From the NCBI GenBank assembly GCA_009694245.1, contig SHVO01000005.1, forward strand, positions 1 to 45,577: a stretch of DNA of 45,577 bases. Direction: 5' to 3'. Both the position numbers and the translations under genes were made by a program. This document shows, piece by piece, positions 30,227-45,577 of this stretch (position 1 is its first letter; every line of letters begins with the position of its first letter). The DNA comes from Rhodospirillaceae bacterium. Lineage in GTDB: Bacteria > Pseudomonadota > Alphaproteobacteria > Rhodospirillales > Rhodospirillaceae. A model generated the notes under the pieces. The model had not been told where the DNA came from, made no database searches, and saw only the letters and a program-made list of their open reading frames with translations.

Positions 30227-30766
30227 CTACTTAATCTGGCCCGGATAGACGATGTAAAAATTGTCCCGGTTGGGCATTTTAACTTTGGGCAGACTCTTGG
30301 CGTCCAGTGCTGCCCGGCTCCCAATAATGCCATTGAGGTTTAGCACGTAGGCGGAAACAGCATAGACGTCGTTGTCTGAGAGCGTTTGCGGTTCGCCCAA
30401 GGGCATCGCCCTGCGGATATAGTCAAACAGCGTGGTCGCGTAGGGCCAATAGCTGCCCACGGTTTTCACCGGCGCTTGATCGCCCATGAGCGTGCCCTGC
30501 CCGCCGACCAATTTATCAGCCGGTGTTCCAACACCGCTTTCGCCGTGACAGCCCTGGCATTTTTGCAGGTAGACCTCTTCGCCACGTTTGACGGTGCCGC
30601 GACCGGCGGGCAGCCCGACGCCGTCCGGACCAATGGAGAGGTCCCAGGCCGCGGCCTCCTTCTCGGTGATCGGCTGGCCAAGCCCGGGGCTCTCAGTGGC
30701 CGAAGCCAGGCCGACCGTGAATCCGAGCGCAGCAGCGCTGATGACGGCAGTGTTACGCGTAAACAT
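30227..30766 (-). CDS. Monoheme c-type cytochrome, sulfite dehydrogenase partner (SoxD/SorB-like)
   Basis: A secreted class I cytochrome c, 179 residues from ATG 30766. A Sec signal peptide (MFTRNTAVISAAALGFTVGLASA) is followed by heme motif CQGCH (Cys70, Cys73, His74) and a Met ligand in RRAMPLGEP. The YWPYATTLFDYIRRAMPLG and DVYAVSAYVLNLNGII stretches are those of SoxD-like cytochromes; the C-terminus (PKVKMPNRDNFY) fits. Only one CXXCH is present, whereas the classic Paracoccus SoxD has two hemes. A GAGG ribosome site seven bases upstream supports this start over the GTG-region ATG at 30781. It overlaps the 3' end of the SoxC-like gene by 14 bp, so the two are one unit and the cytochrome should accept electrons from it. 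Confidence 0.85.
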   Translation of the reverse strand: MFTRNTAVISAAALGFTVGLASATESPGLGQPITEKEAAAWDLSIGPDGVGLPAGRGTVKRGEEVYLQKCQGCHGESGVGTPADKLVGGQGTLMGDQAPVKTVGSYWPYATTLFDYIRRAMPLGEPQTLSDNDVYAVSAYVLNLNGIIGSRAALDAKSLPKVKMPNRDNFYIVYPGQIK

Positions 30767-32042
30767 GTTTGACCTCGCCATTCGCGGCTACGCCCCAGCT
30801 GGTGATGAGATTGCAATGATAGGCGGCACGCGATCCGCGCGCAGCGATTTGTGCGTCCCGCGTCGGCTGGACATAGCCGGTTTCATCGATGGCGCGGCTT
30901 TGCAGGATCGCAGGCGCCCCATTCCAACGCCAAGGAAGCCTGAAACGCGTGATGGCTTTCGAAAGCACTGGTTCGGAGAGCGCGGCTGGCGCCCAGCTTT
31001 TGCCGCCGTCGGCCGTGATTTCCACTTTCGCGATCTTGCCGTGACCGGACCAGGCGATGCCCGAAATCTCGTAAAGGCCCGACGCGGTCATGTTGATGCC
31101 GGGAGAGGGCTTGGTGATCACCGATTTGGCATCCATGGGAAAATTGAACTGCGCGACCTTCCCGTCTTTCACCAGAAGCGAGTACTTCGAGGTCTCGTCC
31201 TTGGTCATGGCCGGCTCGCGCAGCAACTTGACGCGCCGCAACCATTTGACGTTCATGTTGCCCTGATAGCCGGGCAACAGCAGACGCATGGGGTAGCCGT
31301 TCGAGGGCCGGATGCGCTCGCCATTTTGATAAAGCGCGACCATGGCGTCGTCGAGCGCTTTACCGATCGGCACCGATCGGCTCATGGCGGCGGCATCGGC
31401 GCCCTCCGCCACCAGCCACTTGGCGGCCGGATCGACCCCGGCTTCTTCGAGCAGCATGGCCAGCGAAACGCCGGTCCATTCTGCGCATGAAACCAAACCG
31501 TGCAGCGACTGCGCCGTGCCCTCCGCGGGGGTGGCGGCGTACATGCCGCCGCTGTTGCCGGCGCACTCGACAAAGGAAATCCGCGAGGTCATGGGATAAC
31601 GCGACAGCGCCTCGACGGTAAAGGTCAAGGGGCGCTTCACCAAGCCGTGGATCAGCAGGTGGTGGCTGGCAGGATCAATATCGGGAATGCCGTTGTGGCT
31701 GCGTTCGTAGTGCAGGCCGTTGGGGGTGATCATGCCGTCGAGGAACTGCAGCGGGGTCCGAGCATTGCCCGGGCCGATGCCGTTATAAAGATTATTCGGC
31801 AGCGGCCCGCGGACGACCTTGCCTTCAAATTTTGACGGCTGGGTGTAGCCCTGAAGCCAGGCTCCCGGCGTCTTGGTCCAATCCGGGACGACCAGAGTTT
31901 CGGCGTGGACGGGCCGGGTATAGCCGGCGAGCCCAGCGGCCATGCCAACCGCGCCAATGAGGCCCCCGCCCTGGCGAAGAAAAATTCGCCGATCCAGAAG
32001 CCCATTGCCGGCAACTCGCTCGGCATCGAATTCCTCAGTCAT
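30753..32042 (-). CDS. soxC: SoxC-like sulfite (sulfane) dehydrogenase molybdenum subunit
   Basis: A periplasmic molybdopterin enzyme of the sulfite oxidase family, 429 residues. A twin-arginine signal is visible (LDRRIFLRQGGGLIGAVGM, Arg18-Arg19), so folded export with its cofactor is expected. The Mo-ligand Cys160 lies in SFVECAGNSGG; the Moco pocket continues with LHGLVSCAEWTGV and RPSNGYPMRLLLPGYQGN. A C-terminal dimer domain holds WSGHGKIAKVEITADGG. Sequence wording (NVKWLRRVKLL, PMDAKSVITKPSPG) is that of SoxC, but soxXYZAB are absent here, so it may act as a stand-alone sulfite dehydrogenase with the cytochrome encoded directly downstream. A GGGAGGGG ribosome site precedes the ATG. Confidence 0.85.
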   Translation of the reverse strand: MTEEFDAERVAGNGLLDRRIFLRQGGGLIGAVGMAAGLAGYTRPVHAETLVVPDWTKTPGAWLQGYTQPSKFEGKVVRGPLPNNLYNGIGPGNARTPLQFLDGMITPNGLHYERSHNGIPDIDPASHHLLIHGLVKRPLTFTVEALSRYPMTSRISFVECAGNSGGMYAATPAEGTAQSLHGLVSCAEWTGVSLAMLLEEAGVDPAAKWLVAEGADAAAMSRSVPIGKALDDAMVALYQNGERIRPSNGYPMRLLLPGYQGNMNVKWLRRVKLLREPAMTKDETSKYSLLVKDGKVAQFNFPMDAKSVITKPSPGINMTASGLYEISGIAWSGHGKIAKVEITADGGKSWAPAALSEPVLSKAITRFRLPWRWNGAPAILQSRAIDETGYVQPTRDAQIAARGSRAAYHCNLITSWGVAANGEVKHVYA

Positions 32043-32152
32043 GTTCCCCTCCCTAACGCATCAAGAGCCTGATGAATTCTAGCATGTAGCCACCCAACCC
32101 GAGCAGCCAATATCGCAACGCCGGCGGCAAATATTCTATAGATTGAGCACGA

Positions 32153-33307
32153 CTATCGGTTTTCGGGCGACGCGAGAATGTTGCGATCAATGGCCTGAAC
32201 GCTGGTGACGCCGGTCAGCGCCATGGCGACCTTGATTTCCGCTTGAATCAGCGCCAGCGCATGGGCGACACCGGCTTCGCCGCCTGCCGCCAGGGCAAAG
32301 GCCCATGCGCGGCCGAGGAGCACACCCTTGGCACCAAGGGCAAGCATGCGTACGACGTCCAGGCCCGAACGCACGCCGCCGTCGACCAGCACTGTCAGTT
32401 TGTCGCCAACCGCCGCGACAATCGAAGGTAGGGCGCGGACCGTGGACGAGACCCCGTCGAGCTGCCGTCCGCCATGGTTCGAGACGACGATGCCGTCCGC
32501 GCCAAGTGAGGCCGCGGAAATGGCGTCTTCAGGATCGAGGATGCCTTTGATGATCAGCGGACCATTCCAGGTCTCGCGAATGAAATCGAGGTCGCGCCAG
32601 GTTACGCTGCCGTCGAAATTGTTGCGCATCCAGGCGAAGAAGTCCTCGAGGCCGCTGTTGTTGCCCAGTACGCGCGCGACATTTCCCAGGCTGTGCGGGC
32701 GGCCGTTGATGCCGACGTCCCAGGCCCAGCGTGGCCGGCACATGCCTTGCCACGTCCGCCTCAGACTGCCCAGCATGCCCGGGGCGCCCGCCAGCCCCGA
32801 ATGGAGGTCGCGGTAACGCGTACCCGGCACGGGCATGTCGACCGTGAAAAAGAGCGCAGAGACACCCAGCTCCTTGGCTTCGGCGAGCAGCGTGCGCATG
32901 AAGCCACGGTCCTTGATCATATAGAGCTGGAACCAGATGGGTTTCTTGACGCCGGCGGCGACCTCGCGCAAACCACAAACACCGACCGTGGACAGGCAGA
33001 AATTGACGCCGGCGGCATGCGCCGCGCGTGCCGCCTGCACTTCGCCGCGCCGCACGCCTATGCCGGCGAGACCGATGGGGCCGAGCGCCACCGGCATCGA
33101 GAGCGGCTGGCCGAATAATGAGGTCGAAAGATCAAGCTTGGAGATGTCGACCAGTACGCGTTGGCGCAAGGCGACGGCTTCGAGATCGGCCGTGCTTCGC
33201 CCCAGCGTGACCTGGGCATATGAACCGCCATCGAAGTATTCGAACAGGAAATGCGGCAGCCGACGCTTGGCCAGGATGCGATAGTCAAGAACCGATGCCG
33301 CTTTCAC
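32153..33307 (-). CDS. lldD: L-lactate dehydrogenase / alpha-hydroxy-acid oxidase (FMN), LldD
   Basis: A FMN-dependent enzyme of 384 residues that oxidises L-lactate to pyruvate, donating electrons to the quinone pool. Nearly every conserved block of E. coli LldD can be read: [93 protein letters not shown] with the catalytic base His and Arg, and [16 protein letters not shown]. The start is GTG 33307, with GGAG nine bases upstream; an open frame 17 residues longer exists but lacks a ribosome site. A hairpin at 33330-33351 lies in its leader. The lld regulator and permease are not adjacent. Confidence 0.88.
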
Positions 33308-33329
33308 AACAATCCACTCCAAGGTATCT

Positions 33330-33351
33330 GGAGGCGCGCTTCCGCGCCTCC
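33330..33351. terminator. Stable hairpin in the lldD leader
   Basis: GGAGGCGCG (33330-33338) and CGCGCCTCC (33343-33351) pair perfectly around a 4-nt loop, between the unrecognised secreted-protein gene and lldD (both leftward). No T-run follows on the minus strand, so it may be a partial terminator, an mRNA stability element, or a leader structure 23 nt ahead of the lldD start. Confidence 0.5.
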
Positions 33352-33394
33352 CCCGCAAGCGCCACTATCGGGTCAATACCCCGAAGAGGCAAAT

Positions 33395-34177
33395 TCATTT
33401 CGGCGCGGAAGTTACAGTTTGATTGTTCCACGGAAAAATATCGACGCTGACCACGCGCTCGGTGCCGTCGAATAGCGGCGCAAACCGCCCGCCACCAATC
33501 TTGTAGCGGAACTCCTTCACGCGATCCGGCACTTCCACCGTGGCATTGCGCGCGATGTTAATCCCCATGTCCACCTTCGACACCTGCGTAATTTTCGGAT
33601 CGGAAGCCGATACGTAGGTGGTTTCACGCCTGGCCCGCGCCGCCGGAACGCGTTCGTATTTGACGAAGCTTTCGATCCGCTCGCCGCCGACGGCGGTGAA
33701 CTCCCAGGTCTGTTCCTCGATGATACCGGTGCCCTTGGCTGCGGTGGTCGAACGCTTCATTTGGTGCCCGGCGGCCTGGGTATAGACGCCGAAGGGCCCC
33801 GGCACATCGGCCGAATCCCCGGTAAGACCGGCGATTACCATTTGGGCGGCGCTGCCGGTGGCGGCGTTCTTAACCGGTACCGTCAGGTAAACCATCTGGC
33901 TTGCGCCGGTGCCGAGTGTTTTACCATCGGGGCCATTGACGTTGACGCGATCAATAAAAATGACGCGGACGTTGCAGTCCTTTGCCGGGCCGGTCGTCGC
34001 CATCTGAACGTCCCAGCCCGCCGGAAGAAACTTTTTAAGCGCCTGGTCTGGAACATGAAAGTCTAGCTGGAATCGGCTTTCAATGCTCTCCTCCGTGACG
34101 CTCTGAGCCCGCGTATTCACCGAACCCGATACTAGCGCCGCTGAGAGACCGAGACCCAACATGACGTTTCGATGCAT
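33395..34177 (-). CDS. Secreted protein of unknown function
   Basis: I do not recognise this 260-residue protein. A Sec signal peptide is clear (MHRNVMLGLGLSAALVSGSVNTRAQS, cleavage after RAQ or NTRA). The mature part is rich in beta-strand-like segments: ESRFQLDFHVPDQALKKFLPAGWDVQMA, VRVIFIDRVNV, MVYLTVPVKN, VIAGLTGDSADVPGPFGVY and a C-terminal FRYKIGGGRFAPLFDGTERVVSVDIF. The opening (LxLxVPDQALKKFLPxGW) is like that of the acetoacetate-decarboxylase fold, which places a substrate in a beta-barrel, but catalytic residues could not be identified. A strong GGGGGGATGAA site precedes the ATG. It lies between lldD and the NHL protein gene, all leftward. Confidence 0.7.
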   Translation of the reverse strand: MHRNVMLGLGLSAALVSGSVNTRAQSVTEESIESRFQLDFHVPDQALKKFLPAGWDVQMATTGPAKDCNVRVIFIDRVNVNGPDGKTLGTGASQMVYLTVPVKNAATGSAAQMVIAGLTGDSADVPGPFGVYTQAAGHQMKRSTTAAKGTGIIEEQTWEFTAVGGERIESFVKYERVPAARARRETTYVSASDPKITQVSKVDMGINIARNATVEVPDRVKEFRYKIGGGRFAPLFDGTERVVSVDIFPWNNQTVTSAPK

Positions 34178-37943: not shown

Positions 37944-39239
37944 TTAGCGATTCAACAGCTTGGCGGGATTGGCAAACACCATCAGCGCTCCCGTGACCAG
38001 GGCGGCGGCTAGCACCATGACGCCTATACTCGTGCTGCCGGTCGTATCCTTGACCCACCCCAGGAGATAGGGACTGATAAATCCCGCGATACTGCCCACC
38101 GAGTTCGCGACGGCAAACCCCATGGCCGCAGCGGCGCCGCTCGTGATGGACGGCATCAAGGTATGAAACTGCGGCACGCAGGGGATGATGCCCATGGCCG
38201 CCAGCGTCAGCGCCGCCAAAGAGATCGCCGTATTGTCGGCGAACATGACGCTTACCGTAAGGCCGATCGCTCCGGTGACGGCTGAGAGCGCCAGATGCCA
38301 GCGTCGCTCCTTGTGTTTGTCTGAGCTGCGACCGACGACAATCATGGCAATCAGCGCCGCAATATACGGAAGGGCTGTAAGCATACCGACATCGAGCGGA
38401 TCGGCCACGCCGCTTGCTTGAATAATGCTCGGAAGCCAAAAACTTATCCCGTAGAGCCCCATGGTGAAGAAGAAATACGTGCTTGCCAGCAGCCACACGC
38501 GCCCATTCAAGAGGCCGTCGCGGACCGAATGCAGGGCTTTTCCGCCGGCCTCCGCGAGGAGATCGCGCTTCACTTGGTCTTTCTCAGCGCTGTTCAACCA
38601 TTTCGCCGAAGTCACGTCATTATCAAGATAAGTGAAACATATCCCGCCTAGAACGATGGCCGGCAGCGCTTCCAGAAAAAATACCCATTTCCAGCCGGCC
38701 ATCCCCATGGCGCCGTTGAAGCTGTTCATGATCCAGCCGGATACAGGGCCGCCAATGATGCCCGACAAGGGAATGCCGGCGAGGAACATCGCCGAGGCCT
38801 TGCCGCGATGCGTCGAAGGGAACCAAAGCGTAAGGTAGTAGAGGACCGCGGGAATAAAGCCTGCTTCGGCGACCCCCAGCAGAAATCTCAGCACATAAAA
38901 CGTCGGCGCAGATGCGACATATATCATCGCCGCGGAAATAACTCCCCAGACGATCATTATGATGCCGATCCAGAGGCGGGCCCCGACCCGCATTAGGACG
39001 ATATTGCTCGGAATCTCGAAGACCACGTAGCCGATAAAGAAAATTCCGGCGCCGAGACCATAAACGGTCTCGGTGAACTGCAAATCACCGAGCATCTGCA
39101 GCTTTGCGAACCCGACGTTGATGCGGTCGAGGTAGGCGATGATGTAGCACATAAGCAGGAACGGGATCAGGCGGCGCAAGATCTTTGCGTAGACCGCATC
39201 CCTCGCCGGTTCACCGGCAACGACTGAGCTTGCTTCCAT
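37944..39239 (-). CDS. MFS transporter, anion:cation symporter (ACS) family
   Basis: A 431-residue 12-helix permease of the ACS family, which imports organic acid anions such as phthalate, glucarate, tartrate and hydroxy acids with protons or sodium. Family marks include LIPFLLMCYIIAYLDRINVGFAKLQM near the first helix, the motif FLLGVAEAGFIPAVLYYLTLWFP before helix five, SAMFLAGIPLSGIIGGPVSGWIM and the inter-domain SDKHKERRW. Signal peptide absent. It follows the mutase gene by 76 bp on the same strand, with a strong GGGGAGGG site before ATG, and most likely takes up the 2-hydroxyisobutyrate (or another short hydroxy acid) used by the cluster. Substrate is inferred from context only. Confidence 0.85.
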   Translation of the reverse strand: MEASSVVAGEPARDAVYAKILRRLIPFLLMCYIIAYLDRINVGFAKLQMLGDLQFTETVYGLGAGIFFIGYVVFEIPSNIVLMRVGARLWIGIIMIVWGVISAAMIYVASAPTFYVLRFLLGVAEAGFIPAVLYYLTLWFPSTHRGKASAMFLAGIPLSGIIGGPVSGWIMNSFNGAMGMAGWKWVFFLEALPAIVLGGICFTYLDNDVTSAKWLNSAEKDQVKRDLLAEAGGKALHSVRDGLLNGRVWLLASTYFFFTMGLYGISFWLPSIIQASGVADPLDVGMLTALPYIAALIAMIVVGRSSDKHKERRWHLALSAVTGAIGLTVSVMFADNTAISLAALTLAAMGIIPCVPQFHTLMPSITSGAAAAMGFAVANSVGSIAGFISPYLLGWVKDTTGSTSIGVMVLAAALVTGALMVFANPAKLLNR

Positions 39240-39315: not shown

Positions 39316-41007
39316 TTAGAAAACCGGCGTCTCGCGATAGGTACCCCAAATGGGTTTCAGCGTCTCGACGATATCACCCATCGTCGCGCCCGCCTTCACC
39401 AATTCGATCGTGACCGGCATGATGTTTTGGTCTTTGTCGGCCGCCACCGCCTTTAGCCGGTCCAATAGTCGCGATATTACCGCCGGGTCCCGCTCGGCCC
39501 GTACCCGGCGGGTGCGTGCGATCTGCCGATCGGCCGTGCTCTTATCGTAAGGGTGCGTGTGAATTTTCGGATCGGGCGCTCCGTCAACGAAACGGTTCAC
39601 ACCGATCACCGGCTTTTCCCCGGACTGCTTGCGAAGGGCTGTTTCATAGGCGAAATCGGCGATCTGCCCCTGGAACCAGCCCTCCTCGATCAGCTTGAGC
39701 GTGCCGCCGCGGGCGTCGATATCGTCCAGGATCTCGAATATTCGTTTCTCATATTCGGTGGTCAGGCTCTCAACGAAGTAAGAGCCGCCGAGCGGATCAA
39801 TGACCTGCGTGACATTGGTTTCTTCAGCGATGACTTGCTGCGTGCGGAGCGCCATGCGCATGGCATCTTCTGTCGGAATCGCGAAGGCTTCGTCATAGCC
39901 ATTGGTGTGGAGCGATTGGCATCCGCCTAGCACGGCCGCGAGTGCCTGCATGCTGGTGCGAACCACGTTAACCATAAACTGGGGCTTTGTCAGCGTCGCC
40001 GCGGCGGTCTGACAATGGAAGCGCAGGCGCATTGATTCGGGGTTCTTCGCGCCAAACCGCTCTTTCATGATTTTGGCATAACACCGGCGCAGGGCCCGGA
40101 ATTTCGCAACCTCTTCGAAGAAGTCGGCTTGGCAGACAAAAAAGAATGCCAGCCGCGGCGCGAACGCATCGACGTCCATGCCGGTCTTCAACACCTCTTT
40201 CACGTAGACAATCGTGTTGGCGAGCGTGAACGCCGCCTCGTGAAGGGGCGACGAACCGGCCTCGGAGATATGATATCCAGAGATATTGATCGGGTTGTAG
40301 CGTTTCATGGTCTTGGCACAGTGGGTAATGCAATCGCGCACCAAGCGTACTGAAGGCTCAACCGGATAAATGAACTCTTTCTGAGCCATGTATTCCTTAA
40401 GGATGTCGGCCTGCACGGTGCCGGAAAGCTTGTTCAGGTCATACCCGCGCTTTTCCGCCAGTACGATGTACATCGCCAGCAGGATCCAGGCGGTCGGATT
40501 GATGGTCAGCGAGACCGAGATCTTTTCCAGATCGATGCCGTCAAGCAGCGCTTCCATGTCGGCCAGGGTGTCGATCGCGACGCCCTCGCGCCCCACCTCG
40601 CCTTCACTCATCGGATGGTCGGAATCGTAACCCATCAGTGTCGGCATGTCGAAGTCCGTCGAGATGCCGGTCTGGCCCTGTTCGATCAAGTATTTGAAAC
40701 GCTTATTGGTGTCTTCGCCGGTTCCAAATCCGGCGATCTGGCGCATCGTCCAATGACGGCTGCGGTACATGGTTGGATAGGGTCCGCGCGTAAAGGGATA
40801 GCGCCCCGGCAGGCCTACGTCCTCGGCCGGAGTGTCGGCCAAATCCGCGGGCGTGTAGGTGCGTTTGACCGGAATATCGCCGAGGGTGAAGAACGCCGGC
40901 TTACGCTCGGCCTGCTTTTTCACGAACTGCGCAACCTCGTTATTTTCCCAGTCCCGCTCCTCGGCGCGGATTCTGTCAATCGATGCTTGGTCCATGGTCT
41001 TGTTCAT
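39316..41007 (-). CDS. hcmA: 2-hydroxyisobutyryl-CoA mutase large subunit (HcmA type)
   Basis: Substrate-binding subunit of a B12-dependent acyl-CoA mutase, 563 residues, lacking the C-terminal B12 domain, which is a separate gene (HcmB). The TIM barrel shows YPTMYRSRHWTMRQIAGFG, GYDSDHP, GTVQADILKEYMAQ and SGYHISEAGSS (catalytic Tyr245, His246). Specificity positions are Ile91 (Tyr in methylmalonyl-, Phe in isobutyryl-CoA mutase), Asp118 in STDFDMPT (hydroxyl contact) and Gln209 (Arg in methylmalonyl mutase). They correspond to Ile90, Asp117 and Gln208 of the Aquincola tertiaricarbonis HcmA, one residue shifted. The reaction interconverts 2-hydroxyisobutyryl-CoA and (S)-3-hydroxybutyryl-CoA. 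ATG 41007 has an AGAGG site. Generic methylmalonyl-CoA mutase would be an automatic but less exact call. Confidence 0.88.
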   Translation of the reverse strand: MNKTMDQASIDRIRAEERDWENNEVAQFVKKQAERKPAFFTLGDIPVKRTYTPADLADTPAEDVGLPGRYPFTRGPYPTMYRSRHWTMRQIAGFGTGEDTNKRFKYLIEQGQTGISTDFDMPTLMGYDSDHPMSEGEVGREGVAIDTLADMEALLDGIDLEKISVSLTINPTAWILLAMYIVLAEKRGYDLNKLSGTVQADILKEYMAQKEFIYPVEPSVRLVRDCITHCAKTMKRYNPINISGYHISEAGSSPLHEAAFTLANTIVYVKEVLKTGMDVDAFAPRLAFFFVCQADFFEEVAKFRALRRCYAKIMKERFGAKNPESMRLRFHCQTAAATLTKPQFMVNVVRTSMQALAAVLGGCQSLHTNGYDEAFAIPTEDAMRMALRTQQVIAEETNVTQVIDPLGGSYFVESLTTEYEKRIFEILDDIDARGGTLKLIEEGWFQGQIADFAYETALRKQSGEKPVIGVNRFVDGAPDPKIHTHPYDKSTADRQIARTRRVRAERDPAVISRLLDRLKAVAADKDQNIMPVTIELVKAGATMGDIVETLKPIWGTYRETPVF

Positions 41008-41033: not shown

Positions 41034-41996
41034 TTACTTCAGTGACGCGGTGAGTAACTCGGTTGCGAGCGAGTACGGGTCACTCTCGCGCAGGTGCAGG
41101 CGCTCGGCCAAAACCGGCCGCAACCCGCCCGCGGCCCGGGTAAACCGTTCAATCAACAGGTTTTCAGCGGTTTTCTGCAGGCGAAATGTGGCGATAGCCA
41201 AGCGCCGATTGCGGCCGATATCGGTATTTTGGCTCGCCCGCCGATGCGCTTCAATAGCCGTTAGAAATTCGTCAAAACCTTGACCGGTAAAAGAGCATAC
41301 ACCGATGACGGGCGGCTGCCACACCGGCTTGGCGCCCGTCTGAGCCCCGAGAGTGAGCATTTGCTTCAGATCCGTCAGAGTCCGGTTGGCATCGCTGCGG
41401 TCGCACTTCGAAACGAGATGAATGTCGGCGATTTCAAGCATGCCTGCCTTGATGGCCTGGACCTCATCGCCAAGGCCAGGCGCAGAGACGACGACCGTGG
41501 TATCCGACGCCTTGGCGATTTCGACCTCGTCTTGGCCCACGCCAACCGTCTCTATGATGATGGCATCAAAACCGCCGAGGTCGAGGATATCGACTGCGTC
41601 CAATGTCGCCCGGGCCATGCCGCCCATGGCGCCATGGGTCGCCATGCTGCGGATATAAACGCCGCCATCGCCCGCCAGGTCCGACATGCGAATGCGGTCG
41701 CCGAGAATGGCGCCGCCCGAATAAGGACTGGATGGATCAACTGCGACGATGCCGACCTTACTGCCCCGCGCGCGTAGGCGGGCGGCCAGCGTCGCGACCA
41801 GGGTGGATTTTCCGCTTCCGGGAACGCCGGTTATGCCTATGACATGCGCCTTGCCGCCACGGCGGTAGACTTGCGCAAGCGCCGCGCGGGCTTCGGGAAT
41901 CCCCGCCTCCGCGCGAGAAATTAGCCGGGCAATGGCGTGAACTTCGCCGCGCTCGATCCGGGGAATGAGGTCGACCGACGGCACATAGGCGCTCAC
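41034..41996 (-). CDS. MeaB-type GTPase, mutase chaperone (MeaH-like)
   Basis: A 320-residue G3E-family GTPase of the MeaB/ArgK type, which protects and reloads the B12 cofactor of an acyl-CoA mutase. Walker A is GVPGSGKST (residues 57-65), switch motifs read DPSSPYSGGAILGDRIRM and ETVGVGQ, and the guanine-specificity motif is SKCD in place of the usual NKxD (Asn replaced by Ser, an oddity). The N-terminal helical arm and C-terminal dimerisation arm (residues from about 255) are both present. GTG start overlaps the ligase stop by four bases; hcmA follows 26 bp later. Mutase-associated G proteins in HCM clusters are called MeaH, so this should serve the HcmAB pair here. Confidence 0.87.
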   Translation of the reverse strand: MSAYVPSVDLIPRIERGEVHAIARLISRAEAGIPEARAALAQVYRRGGKAHVIGITGVPGSGKSTLVATLAARLRARGSKVGIVAVDPSSPYSGGAILGDRIRMSDLAGDGGVYIRSMATHGAMGGMARATLDAVDILDLGGFDAIIIETVGVGQDEVEIAKASDTTVVVSAPGLGDEVQAIKAGMLEIADIHLVSKCDRSDANRTLTDLKQMLTLGAQTGAKPVWQPPVIGVCSFTGQGFDEFLTAIEAHRRASQNTDIGRNRRLAIATFRLQKTAENLLIERFTRAAGGLRPVLAERLHLRESDPYSLATELLTASLK

Positions 41997-43447
41997 CCTG
42001 CCCGCTCCCGTTCCAAATGCGCGTGCATCTCGCGAAAGGCTGCGCGGTCATCGACCACACGGCGCGCCTTGAAATCCGTACGCGGCAACTGGCCATGGGC
42101 GACAATTTCCGCCTGGGCGCGCAGGCCAAGAACCTTTTGCAGGCGGTGCAAAATATCTAAGCGAAACGCCTCAACGGCGCTGCCGCCGGCCCTGAAAATA
42201 CCCTCACTGGCCTCAACACGAAGCAGGAGCTCGTCCATAGCGGCTTGGCGAGAAATAATGATTTGGTGTTCACCGCCGTAGCCGGGGGTCTCGTTCAGGG
42301 CGGCCTCGATTTCGCTGGGATAGACGTTCTCGCCGCGGATCGTAAACATATCGTCGATGCGCCCAAAGATGCCGTGGGGCAGCCGCGGATAGGTGCGCCC
42401 GCAAGGGTTCGGGCCATCGACCCACTGCGTGAGGTCACCCGACGCCAGCCGAATCATGGGCTGCGATGTACGCTCGAGGTGGGTGTAAACCGGTGTGCCG
42501 CGCTGGCCGTACGGTACCCGGCGCATGCTTTTGGGGTCGCAGACCTGCGTGTAGATTATATCCTGCCAGCACAACATGCCTTCGGTCTCGGCCGAGCCGG
42601 CAACGTTCATCCACGGCGTCATTTCGGCCATGGAGCCGCAATCGAAGATCTTGGCGCCGTAAAGCTCGTCAATGCGAGCACGCACACCGGGAATCGATGC
42701 CCCAGGTTCGCCCGAAAAGAACATGTGCCGGATGCCAAATTTTCGTGGGTCGAGGCCCTCTTTTATCGCCGTCTCACCGAGATGGATGGCATAGGTGGGC
42801 GTGCCATAGAAGGCGCCCGGCCTGATAATATCGAGCCATTGAGCGCAGCGCGCCGTCATGCCGGGCGCGCCCGCGCCAAAGGGGAAGGCCTTGGCGCCGA
42901 GGCGCTCGGCGCCGGCAAGCGCGCCCCAGCTACCCATGTAAAGGCTGAAAATGGCGGCCACACAGATGGTGTCGCCGGGTCGCATGCCCATGCCCCACAT
43001 GATGCGGGCGTGGGCGTTGGCGATGGCCCGCCAGTCGCTTCGCCCAATGGCGAAAGCCGTGGGCCGGCCGGTCGTGCCGCTGGTGCCGTGAAGGTGGAAA
43101 ATCTCGCTTTCCGGGACGCACAGATAGTCGCCGAAAGGCGGGGTCTTCGCCTGGGAAGCACGTAATTCGGCCTTATTGACGACCGGCACCCGATCTTCGA
43201 AGTCTTCGAGCGACCGAAGGTGATCGGGATGGAATTCGGCTTCGTTCCATTTGCGCCGGTAGAACTCGGAATTCTCATAGGCGTATGTGCACACTAACCG
43301 CAGCCGCTCCAGGATGGCCTGTTCCCGTTCGCTGGCCGGCATGGTTTCCCGGCGCGGAAACCAGTGGCGACTTCCGGACGCTGGCAGGTAGGTGTCGTCG
43401 TAGGCCGGCGGGAATGTCCAGGATTCCATCAGCGCAGATGCGGTCAA
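41993..43447 (-). CDS. hcl: Acyl-CoA ligase, probable 2-hydroxyisobutyrate-CoA ligase (PaaK-like)
   Basis: An AMP-forming CoA ligase of 484 residues in the phenylacetate-CoA ligase group. The adenylate-binding loop HGTSGTTGRPTAF, the FSGEPGASIP segment, GQRGTPVYTHLERTSQPMIRL and hinge RIDDMFTIRGENVYPSEIEAAL are clear, with a C-terminal acyl transfer Lys in PRTDFKARRV. The gene sits between the mutase B12 subunit and the GTPase, as the 2-hydroxyisobutyryl-CoA ligase (Hcl) does in known HCM clusters, so it should activate 2-hydroxyisobutyrate with ATP and CoA. Start is TTG 43447, overlapping hcmB's stop (TTGA), with CGAGGG ahead; ATG 43429 is an alternative. Phenylacetate itself is unlikely because the paa genes are absent. 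Confidence 0.82.
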   Translation of the reverse strand: MTASALMESWTFPPAYDDTYLPASGSRHWFPRRETMPASEREQAILERLRLVCTYAYENSEFYRRKWNEAEFHPDHLRSLEDFEDRVPVVNKAELRASQAKTPPFGDYLCVPESEIFHLHGTSGTTGRPTAFAIGRSDWRAIANAHARIMWGMGMRPGDTICVAAIFSLYMGSWGALAGAERLGAKAFPFGAGAPGMTARCAQWLDIIRPGAFYGTPTYAIHLGETAIKEGLDPRKFGIRHMFFSGEPGASIPGVRARIDELYGAKIFDCGSMAEMTPWMNVAGSAETEGMLCWQDIIYTQVCDPKSMRRVPYGQRGTPVYTHLERTSQPMIRLASGDLTQWVDGPNPCGRTYPRLPHGIFGRIDDMFTIRGENVYPSEIEAALNETPGYGGEHQIIISRQAAMDELLLRVEASEGIFRAGGSAVEAFRLDILHRLQKVLGLRAQAEIVAHGQLPRTDFKARRVVDDRAAFREMHAHLERERAG

Positions 43448-43851
43448 CGCGGCCCTCGTTCCGCGACCAGACGCGTGAGCGTCTTGACGATCGCCTCGGG
43501 TGGCGTGTCTTGGAGCAACACTTCGCTTACACCCATTTTCTTGAGTTCGGCCACGTCCTCATCGGGCATAACGCCGCCGGCTACGATGATCAGGTCGTTA
43601 ATGCCCTTATCGGCCAGGAGGTTGAAGATCTTGGGAAAAACGGTGAGGTGCACGCCCGAGAGCAGGCTGACACCGAGAACGTCGACATCCTCCTGGATTG
43701 CGGCACTCACGACTTCCTCGGGCGTGCGGTGAAGGCCGGAGTAGATCACATCCATGCCAGCATCTCTTAACGTTCGCGCAACCACTTTCACGCCGCGGTC
43801 ATGCCCATCCAGGCCGACCTTGGCTAGCAATACACGGATAGGCTGACTCAA
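43444..43851 (-). CDS. hcmB: 2-hydroxyisobutyryl-CoA mutase B12-binding subunit (HcmB type)
   Basis: A 135-residue cobalamin-binding subunit. The DxHxxG motif is LDGHDRG (Asp15, His17, Gly20), His17 being the lower cobalt ligand; the remaining tail-binding parts are SLLSG and the VAGGVMPDED loop. This size and sequence match the separate small subunit of heteromeric mutases (HcmB, IcmB-small, McmA2) that pairs with the 563-residue large subunit. It is the first of the four coupled genes hcmB-hcl-meaH-hcmA. The start codon is TTG at 43851 with GGGGA seven bases ahead; no ATG is in a good place. The upstream hydrolase gene ends 49 bp away. Confidence 0.88.
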   Translation of the reverse strand: MSQPIRVLLAKVGLDGHDRGVKVVARTLRDAGMDVIYSGLHRTPEEVVSAAIQEDVDVLGVSLLSGVHLTVFPKIFNLLADKGINDLIIVAGGVMPDEDVAELKKMGVSEVLLQDTPPEAIVKTLTRLVAERGPR

Positions 43852-43900
43852 AGAACTTCCCCTAAAACTGGACTCTTACCAGCCCCAGCACTTAAGGGCT

Positions 43901-45025
43901 TCAGCTCTGCCGCTTGTTCGCCGGCCAGGTGTGGGGCTCGCCGATGAATACTTCCTTGGTGCGAATATTGATGCATACGGGCGTCCGATAAAGTGGCGCG
44001 ATGGACTGGGTCGCGGGCATTTTATCCCGCACCGCCATGAACAACGGTTCGGTGCCCATGTCCGGGAACGAGCCGGCGGTTTCGTCGTGATGGTTGGGCA
44101 GAAAAATGTCCGGCTTGAACAGTTCGACCAACGGCAGCGTGCCTTCGATTTGACGTTTTGGAACGAAGTAGCCTTGATAGGCGACGCTGGCGACATCCAC
44201 CTTGCCGATACGTTTCATGACTGCACGCTGGCCTTCGGTGACTGGTCCCGAGCTATCCAGCATCATGAACTTAAAACCGTTATCGAAGGTGATGAGGAAA
44301 GCGTAGGTGCCCTGATCAAGGACATGCGGGTCGTTGGTGCCCTTGATCACGCCCGAATTACCCGCCGCCCGCGCTTCCGGCGAACGGCCGATGCCGGTGG
44401 CTTTTTGCAACTCGGCCCAAGCCGCGCCCGCGACTTTGGTGAATTCCGGCGTGCGCGAATTGTGTTGGGACAAGATCGATTCCACCGTGAAGCCAAGGTA
44501 CTTCTGTACGTCGCCATTCTTGACTGTCATGGCCTGCTTCTCGGGCAGACCCATTTTCACTGCCACCTCGGTCGTTAATGCGGCTCCGTAAAGCGGCGCA
44601 TTGGCCTGTTTGGCGATCTGCGGGCCCTCGGACATATGATCGCCGTGGCCGTGGCCGATGTAGAGCGCCGTGACCTTCTTGATTTGGTCGGCGGTGACGC
44701 CGATGGGCCGCGCGAAGGCCTCGCGCTCATACTGGGCGTCGAACAAGATTACCGAATCGCGATAGGCCAATTCAAAATTGGCCGAGCCGACGTAGCGCAG
44801 CACCATGAGATCGGAACCCTTGGGCGCCGGGCCACCGGCACCGACCATCTGCAGAGACTGGCAGGCCGGCTCCTGCGCCCAGGCGGGCGCGTCAGCGGCG
44901 TTGACCGAAGGTCCCGTGACCATGGCGGTGGCTCCGCCGAGCACAAGAGCCAGCGCACTGACGGTTGTGCGAGCCCACGGCTTCACCGAAGCCCCTGATC
45001 CACAAAGCGTTTTAATTGAGTTCAT
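43901..45025 (-). CDS. Secreted MBL-fold metallo-hydrolase
   Basis: A 374-residue exported enzyme of the metallo-beta-lactamase superfamily. The N-terminus has a basic region (SVKPWARTT) and hydrophobic stretch ending VNAADAPAWA, a Sec signal. The zinc motif is GHGHGDH (His125, His127, Asp129, His130), followed by the His in LSQHNSR, Asp in MMLDSSG and His in NHHDE. It has the look of UlaG-like or lipoprotein-related hydrolases of the superfamily, whose substrates range from lactones to phosphate esters; the specific reaction is unknown. The gene precedes hcmB by 49 bp on the same strand and may supply the 2-hydroxy acid to the cluster by hydrolysis. A strong GGGGAGGG site precedes ATG 45025. 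Confidence 0.82.
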   Translation of the reverse strand: MNSIKTLCGSGASVKPWARTTVSALALVLGGATAMVTGPSVNAADAPAWAQEPACQSLQMVGAGGPAPKGSDLMVLRYVGSANFELAYRDSVILFDAQYEREAFARPIGVTADQIKKVTALYIGHGHGDHMSEGPQIAKQANAPLYGAALTTEVAVKMGLPEKQAMTVKNGDVQKYLGFTVESILSQHNSRTPEFTKVAGAAWAELQKATGIGRSPEARAAGNSGVIKGTNDPHVLDQGTYAFLITFDNGFKFMMLDSSGPVTEGQRAVMKRIGKVDVASVAYQGYFVPKRQIEGTLPLVELFKPDIFLPNHHDETAGSFPDMGTEPLFMAVRDKMPATQSIAPLYRTPVCINIRTKEVFIGEPHTWPANKRQS

Positions 45026-45129: not shown

Positions 45130-45169
45130 AAAAAGGTGAGCCGGCCACCGGGGAGAGGTGGCCGGCTCA
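45130..45169 (-). terminator. Intrinsic terminator of the DUF1552-like gene
   Basis: TGAGCCGGCCACC (45137-45149) and GGTGGCCGGCTCA (45157-45169) form a perfect 13-bp stem with a 7-nt loop. On the minus strand the stem is followed by CC and a run of five T (45130-45134 complement), the standard intrinsic terminator layout. It would end transcription coming from the right, 180 bp after the DUF1552-like stop. Confidence 0.8.
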
Positions 45170-45208: not shown

Positions 45209-45349
45209 CCCTTTGGGTTGTAGCTACATCAATACGCTAGAGTGGATCAGGGCGCATCTGGAACTTCACCAACTGCGGCCCGGAAGCATCCTCGCCGCCC
45301 TCCTGATGCCAGACTGGCTCTGCGGGCGTGCAGACCGGCCACCGTCGGC

Positions 45350-45577
45350 CTAGGCGAGCACGTCCGTGAGCGTCTTCGAAGTCCGGTTCGACTCAGTTCC
45401 CCACGTGCCGATAGGAACGCCCAAGGCCTGCATAACGGTCAGACCGAAGCGCGATACGGTATCGCCCTTGGCCGAAACGTGGATGCCGGTCTTCAAGCGC
45501 CCATTGGCTTTGCCTATGGTCATCAAGGGGATGTTCTCGGTCGAGTGGGTGCGGGCAAAGCCACCGTCGGTCGAATA
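45350..45577 (-). CDS. DUF1552-like protein (C-terminal end, cut by window edge)
   Basis: The last 75 codons of a leftward gene entering from the right edge, stop TAG at 45350-45352. The reading GGFARTHSTENIPLMTIGKA, then GRLKTGIHVSAKGDTVSRFGLTV and QALGVPIGTWGT, follows the layout of the C-terminal end of DUF1552 (related to DUF1501) exported proteins, where a His-x-x-x-x-x-P, G-x-G-G-x-x-x-x-G-R-H and a final G-V-P-x-x-x-F-G are usual. The central glycines are partly replaced (KANGRL), so the match is imperfect. No start is inside the window. A terminator lies 180 bp downstream. Function of the family is unknown. Confidence 0.55.
   Translation of the reverse strand, partial: YSTDGGFARTHSTENIPLMTIGKANGRLKTGIHVSAKGDTVSRFGLTVMQALGVPIGTWGTESNRTSKTLTDVLA

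Follow-up and report, generated by a model that had tools for sequence, protein, structure and literature searches.

The window analysed here, a stretch of 45,577 nucleotides, spans an entire contig (C37) of genome G000, which amounts to 1.64 Mb and is 77% complete. Close to one end of the window lies a series of minus-strand genes in the order hydrolase, hcmB, hcl, meaH, hcmA and MFS transporter, followed by a gene for malonyl-CoA decarboxylase. The hydrolase gene (43901..45025), which would be the first gene of the operon, begins with ATG, has GGGGAGGG shortly 5' of this start codon, and encodes an MBL-type protein of 374 amino acids with a two-zinc motif and the features of an exported enzyme. 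A gap of 49 bp (43852..43900) that contains no terminator-like site separates it from hcmB (43444..43851), which encodes the B12-binding small mutase subunit (PF02310). The next genes are hcl (41993..43447) for 2-hydroxyisobutyrate-CoA ligase, meaH (41034..41996) for a mutase-associated G-protein of the MeaB family (PF03308), and hcmA (39316..41007) for the large subunit of 2-hydroxyisobutyryl-CoA mutase; hcmB and hcl overlap by 4 bp, as do hcl and meaH. Directly behind hcmA stands the gene of an MFS transporter (37944..39239), a candidate for organic-acid uptake, which occupies the same position in G010 and is absent from that position in G011 and G001. The hydrolase and hcm genes are probably transcribed as one unit.

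Judged by the identity of its HcmA and HCL, the cluster is a true 2-hydroxyisobutyryl-CoA mutase (HCM) cluster, with hcl and meaH both found beside hcmAB. HcmA matches structure 4r3u at 1046 bits, compared with 449 bits for the next structure, and HCL matches 6hdw at 832 bits, compared with 213. The substrate-pocket region of the window HcmA is nearly identical to that of 4r3u, and its residues I91 and D118, which are shared by 12 of 12 HcmA rows, occupy the positions of what we take to be the active-site residues Ile90 and Asp117 in HCM numbering. The order hcmB-hcl-meaH-hcmA, typical of the cluster of Aquincola tertiaricarbonis and Methylibium petroleiphilum, is the same on three plasmids, whose HcmA proteins share 82-85% identity with that of the window. 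Overall, the hydrolase-headed operon is a variant of the known HCM cluster, from which it differs in that an exported MBL hydrolase gene stands first and, in the window and G010, in that an MFS gene lies directly behind hcmA and no regulator gene was found.

The genes past malonyl-CoA decarboxylase are mostly common to the three hydrolase-bearing relatives described below. At 30227-34177, the window encodes an LldD-like lactate dehydrogenase, a SoxC-type sulfite dehydrogenase, a cytochrome c and an exported-looking protein without a Pfam match; the first three genes adjoin the hcm cluster in all four hydrolase-bearing genomes and the fourth in three of them.

Features and relatives of the hydrolase

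The N-terminus of the hydrolase resembles a signal peptide (44894..45025, minus strand; approximately residues 1-43), with a basic n-region, a subsequent hydrophobic segment and a cleavage-like VNA/AD sequence at residues 41-45, as judged by eye and hydropathy. The Kyte-Doolittle maximum of 2.15 is reached near residue 22, and values in the rest of the protein do not exceed 1.20. The zinc motif HGHGDH (44636..44653, minus strand) covers residues 125-130, and the predicted zinc ligands H125, H127, D129, H130, H188, D257 and H312 are invariant in all seven aligned family members. The open reading frame, the ligands and the gap confirm what the earlier note had described, namely an exported zinc hydrolase with a full HxHxDH set encoded 49 bp 5' of hcmB on the same strand. 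Relative to a 94%-identical orthologue, dN/dS was 0.086 for the hydrolase and 0.031-0.094 for the four hcm genes of the same pair; in more distant pairs the hydrolase gave 0.14-0.22 and the hcm genes lower values of 0.035-0.127. Since these ratios indicate purifying selection, the reading frame is not a chance one.

The named proteins nearest to the hydrolase are remote. The window hydrolase scores 20.3 bits against Pfam PF12706, below the cut-off of 27, and all seven members of its family match this model at E ≤ 0.05. The nearest solved proteins by profile, UlaG, UPF0173 and RNase J, are distant matches with E-values from 6e-5 to 1e-3, and no close relative of known substrate was present among the profile matches. 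PRK00685, the nearest NCBI model, is matched by seven of seven members (best E 1.1e-11), with the window protein at 37.8 bits against a cut-off of 144; for UlaG it reaches 16.6 bits against 306, again under the cut-off. Like the UlaG/UPF0173 (PRK00685) branch, the hydrolase carries HxHxDH and later His, Asp and His ligands; unlike that branch, it is of the exported type and scores far below the family cut-offs. The stretch between H188 and D257 is, we presume, longer than in lactonases. As to the alpha-beta/beta-alpha fold, AlphaFold models built from four-sequence alignments had mean pLDDT values of 33.2 and 35.3 for the full and mature protein, respectively, too low to be informative.

The export-type N-terminus and MBL type would also suit a periplasmic zinc beta-lactamase, and weak matches to subclass B3 (four of seven members, best E 4.6e-6) and to B1 (five of seven, best E 0.0011) point in the same direction. 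However, the window protein falls well short of the curated cut-offs, with 23.1 bits for the class B core (cut-off 100) and 18.7 for B1 (cut-off 200), and no B3 model appeared among its cut-off-scored matches. B1 and B3 enzymes carry Cys or Ser at the position equivalent to 257, and the Asp found here suits ester, lactone or phosphodiester hydrolases better than beta-lactamases. Together with the location of the gene in a catabolic operon, this makes a beta-lactamase very improbable. Literature searches returned no paper joining 2-hydroxyisobutyric acid and metallo-beta-lactamase, and the word 'lactamase' does not occur in PMC7176365 or PMC13188929.

More distant relatives are encoded on Caballeronia plasmids (WP_244796538.1 and relatives), with approximately 36% identity over 80-82% of the length and the same ligands. 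Their export-type N-termini contain a lipobox-like LSAC, and in three records the annotated neighbours, which form unrelated contexts, include no hcm genes; the fourth record is unannotated.

Distribution and origin of the hydrolase gene

Across 317 genomes of the order, hcl was found in 17 (E ≤ 1e-140) and the hydrolase in four (E ≤ 1e-12). These four, G000 (the genome of the window), G010, G011 and G001, all belong to one genus, and in each of them the hydrolase gene lies directly 5' of hcmB, with gaps of 49, 49, 28 and 23 bp; at the same threshold, the remaining 13 hcl genomes of the order gave no match. A scan of genome contigs yielded two MBL loci, L008 and L009, which correspond to G010 and G001. 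In the set of 61 genomes comprising the window's own genome and its relatives, an MBL match at E ≤ 1e-3 was obtained in five, one of which, G037, matched only weakly. The G037 match was rejected as a family member: it has 24% identity, scores well against PF12706 (98.5 bits) where the family does not, and lies on a different contig from the hcm genes of that genome. In a class sample of 385 genomes, hcl was present in eight, including G000, and the seven others gave no MBL match at E ≤ 1e-3, in a set without a genome known to match. No MBL gene occurs within 8-10 kb on either side of hcl on three of three plasmids (hcl E ≤ 1e-130). A phylum sample of 398 genomes contained no MBL match at E ≤ 1e-8 except the window's own, phage records no MBL relative at E ≤ 1e-3, and viral contigs no relatives of the MBL protein or of the TonB receptor discussed below.

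In total, the hydrolase was detected in 4 of the 24 hcl genomes found and in none of the three plasmid neighbourhoods; many of the surveyed genomes are incomplete (63-99%), and some retrieved stretches are contig ends that display only part of the neighbourhood. Since 20 of the 24 hcl genomes are without the gene and all three plasmids are without it beside hcl, the hydrolase is no general requirement for the use of 2-HIBA. It is an addition to the HCM cluster, seen in one clade only. The proposal that the hydrolase is not a standard part of HCM clusters is borne out by these counts (four of 17 hcl genomes in the order, none of seven in the class sample, none of three plasmids). Absence from all other hcm neighbourhoods, which the earlier note had named, jointly with an independent promoter of hcmB and a lack of any growth effect on hydroxy acids, as telling against its reading, was not observed, as three further genomes carry the gene there.

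To place the four carriers, HcmA sequences were compared in a tree of 22 rows, chosen from 28 sources that carry hcl or hcmA, namely the 24 hcl genomes, G012 and three plasmids. Excluded were G077, G078, G082, G092, G911 and G935, whose stretches contain no hcmA or only a fragment of it. A first tree of 24 rows included two methylmalonyl-CoA mutase outgroup rows with branches of about 8, and the 22-row tree was built without them. The four hydrolase-bearing rows formed one group with support of 98/97 in both trees, corresponding to one state change. Because the HcmA proteins of the carriers form a single supported group, a single origin of the insertion is the simplest reading.

Additional copies were observed in two carriers. 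Tandem MBL copies are present in G001 (L009:8827-11005), and in G011 a distant MBL paralogue lies beside a TonB receptor gene and RidA-like and MFS genes (L044:9486-12618).

Regulator, palindrome and probable operon membership

According to the retrieved portion of PMC7176365, a GntR regulator gene upstream of the HCM cluster is usual, although not obligatory. Two of the four clade members have such a gene. G011 shows the order GntR (minus strand), MBL, hcmB, hcl, meaH and hcmA, and G001 the order GntR (minus strand), two MBL copies (a, then b), hcmB and onward; in both genomes, GntR and the MBL gene are divergent and flank the palindrome TTGAATTCTGAATTCAA. On the Agrobacterium, Xanthobacter and Methylibium plasmids, GntR is directly divergent from hcmB. 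The GntR-hcmB spacers of Agrobacterium and Xanthobacter contain TGAATTCTGAATTCA and TGAATTCAGAATTCA, with the palindrome core TGAATTCWGAATTCA located between the two genes; the Methylibium spacer and the seven class-sample stretches did not show the palindrome. In G011 and G001, the hydrolase thus occupies the place behind the palindrome that hcmB occupies elsewhere.

When six genomes were searched for GAATTCWGAATTC, G011, G001 and G012 each had a single site, in every case adjacent to the GntR gene, and G000, G010 and G037 had none. The reversed control pattern matched in G012 only, once in forward and once in reverse orientation. No GntR match at E ≤ 1e-25 was obtained in G000 (77% complete), G010 (97%) or G037, nor was a GntR gene seen upstream of the cluster in G000 and G010. 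Regulator and palindrome therefore co-occur in these six genomes, three having both and three neither, which is consistent with binding of the GntR protein to the palindrome as its presumed operator. Because regulator and palindrome precede the gene in two carriers, and because the palindrome tracks this regulator, membership of the hydrolase in the HCM regulon is very probable. For G000 and G010, gene order is what points to co-regulation, since neither GntR nor the palindrome was found there.

These arrangements bear on the question of whether the hydrolase is merely a passenger between regulator and hcmB that serves another periplasmic process, such as cell-envelope or signal-lactone hydrolysis, with no link to 2-hydroxyisobutyrate. 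Such a role would agree with the restriction of the gene to one clade, with the G011 paralogue on another contig apart from the hcm genes, with the unrelated contexts of the Caballeronia relatives, and with the faster evolution of the hydrolase than of the hcm genes in distant pairs. Nevertheless, the gene has stayed beside hcmB in all four carriers at up to 24-29% protein divergence, even though the regulator is missing in two of them, and it lies behind the presumed operator of the operon in G011 and G001. We therefore regard a passenger as rather unlikely, and the view that the hydrolase belongs to the cluster, already put forward in the earlier note, has gained support from its adjacency to hcmB in four of four carriers and from the regulator and presumed operator before the gene in two.

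Upstream of the hydrolase in the window, a terminator-like hairpin (45137..45169, minus strand) of 13 pairs followed by CCTTTTT lies between the upstream DUF1552 gene and the hydrolase gene and is conserved in G010; the scanned stretch holds three terminator-like sites, compared with 1.5 on average in shuffles. A scan for sigma-70-like promoters upstream of the hydrolase found none. TGAATTC remnants shortly 5' of the hydrolase start in the window and G010 were considered as a residual operator and discounted, because the window has no palindrome match there within three mismatches. The DUF1552 (HXXSHH) gene is represented by its 3' part (window 45344-45577), cut by the contig end; its last 75 residues, which are readable, show a 97% match to the end of a DUF1552 protein. 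In G010, tandem DUF1552 copies stand at this place. A literature search returned no paper joining DUF1552 and DUF1592.

Near the hcm regulator, G011 (L043:880-3195) and G001 (L009:3164-8042) encode exported-looking proteins of approximately 770-790 residues that contain a single CxxCH motif and a weakly matching carboxypeptidase-regulatory-like domain; a further copy in G001 appears split into two ORFs. On plasmid pXAUT01 of Xanthobacter autotrophicus Py2, a second copy of the palindrome (L065:15439-15453) lies 37 bp 5' of Xaut_5024, an extracellular ligand-binding receptor gene. Because of this upstream copy, Xaut_5024 may be a member of the HCM regulon, and its product may bind 2-hydroxyisobutyrate. 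The palindrome provides a sequence handle for further genes of the same regulon. No paper joining 2-hydroxyisobutyryl-CoA, GntR and operator was returned by a literature search.

Proposed role and variation at the operon head

The elements read directly from sequence are the export-type N-terminus, the zinc ligands, the identity of HCM and HCL, the gene order and the shared palindrome. Building on these, we propose that a standard HCM operon acquired an MBL gene, in the simplest case a single time, in the space between its GntR-type regulator gene and hcmB, an event that would have made the hydrolase the first gene of the operon, behind the same operator. The exported, probably periplasmic two-zinc enzyme would act outside the cytoplasm on an ester or lactone, setting free 2-hydroxyisobutyrate or a close relative. 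The acid would then be taken up, with the MFS permease behind hcmA as the candidate carrier, converted to its CoA thioester by HCL, and isomerized by HcmAB to 3-hydroxybutyryl-CoA. Periplasmic cleavage of an ester or lactone is the most economical reading because it accommodates the Asp at 257, the export-type N-terminus and the operon context at once. The earlier note had suggested an ester, a lactone or a polymer as the possible source of the acid. That an exported hydrolase added to the HCM operon frees 2-hydroxyisobutyrate or a close relative in this way is a tentative proposal, to which we give close to an even chance.

A related possibility assigns the hydrolase and a TonB-dependent receptor to a common route: the receptor would bring in a natural conjugate of larger size, the hydrolase would split it in the periplasm, and one of the resulting fragments would feed the hcm genes. 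Receptors of one family, with 42-58% identity among three (start codons assigned by eye), are encoded in three of the carriers: the G001 gene lies approximately 110 bp 3' of hcmA, that of G010 8.4 kb 5' of the MBL gene, and that of G011 approximately 100 bp 3' of the MBL paralogue. In a search with the G011 receptor, one plasmid record out of 72,556 matched at E ≤ 1e-50. However, the receptor encoded at the hcm locus of G011 itself is a different one and is read from the opposite strand, the window contig ends before the stretch where the receptor would be expected, and no MBL match lies near the lone plasmid relative (L104). We consider such a joint route unlikely. Its more specific form, in which an as yet unrecognized natural 2-hydroxyisobutyrate conjugate enters by a dedicated TonB receptor, is cleaved by the periplasmic MBL enzyme and delivers the acid to the mutase pathway, appears more doubtful still; if true, it would constitute a natural 2-hydroxyisobutyrate source for HCM bacteria of unpolluted habitats. 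A function of the hydrolase and the TonB receptors in B12 uptake was considered and rejected. No Rfam match at the gathering threshold, and hence no cobalamin riboswitch, was obtained in the window, L008 (G010), L009 (G001), L043, L044 or L047. Only the G011 receptor leans to BtuB, at 94.6 bits where the cut-off is 599.7, and the receptor family accompanying the MBL genes leans to siderophore receptors, below the cut-off.

Returning to the release of 2-hydroxyisobutyrate from an ester or lactone, the origin of the substrate deserves attention. HCM was first studied in fuel-oxygenate degraders, and other strains with the mutase and HCL come mostly from pristine environments. The Rieske oxygenase encoded near the hcm genes on Methylibium plasmid RPME01, which we take to be MdpJ, was used as a query against six genomes. 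At E ≤ 1e-20, there was no match in G000 (77% complete), G010, G011, G012 or G037, and a single match of 34% identity in G001. The near absence of this oxygenase from the six genomes speaks against a route of this type by way of tert-butyl alcohol. The earlier suggestion of a source different from fuel oxygenates agrees with the little sign of such a route in the carriers, three of the four having no match to the oxygenase and the fourth only the one at 34% identity. The retrieved portion of PMC7176365 states that 2-HIBA or a related acid may have a natural source that has yet to be identified. It is this acknowledged gap (PMC7176365, retrieved portion) that makes the hydrolase variant of interest, as an exported hydrolase linked to the regulon offers a defined enzyme for tracing the natural source of 2-HIBA.

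Other genes were observed at or near the head of HCM operons. A gamma-carbonic-anhydrase-like gene stands directly 5' of hcmB in at least six of the order's 13 hcl genomes without the hydrolase (L069, L070, L071, L054, L073 and L074). The hydrolase looks like one more feeder module on a fixed HCM core. In G012, which belongs to the same genus and is listed as 100% complete, hcmB-meaH-hcmA are present, and neither hcl (E ≤ 1e-60) nor an MBL gene was found; Ptb- and Buk-like genes for a phosphotransferase and a kinase replace hcl behind the same GntR gene and palindrome (L047:5304-11839). This pair is possibly a second way to activate 2-hydroxyisobutyrate. A thiamine-diphosphate lyase-like gene stands beside the regulator or hcmB in L096, L097, L098, L099 and L101 (G1043, G793, G889, G972 and G911, respectively), L101 being an 11.4-kb contig with no hcmA or meaH behind hcl. 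The position of this gene suggests an enzyme that would join acetone and formyl-CoA to 2-hydroxyisobutyryl-CoA, or catalyze the reverse reaction.
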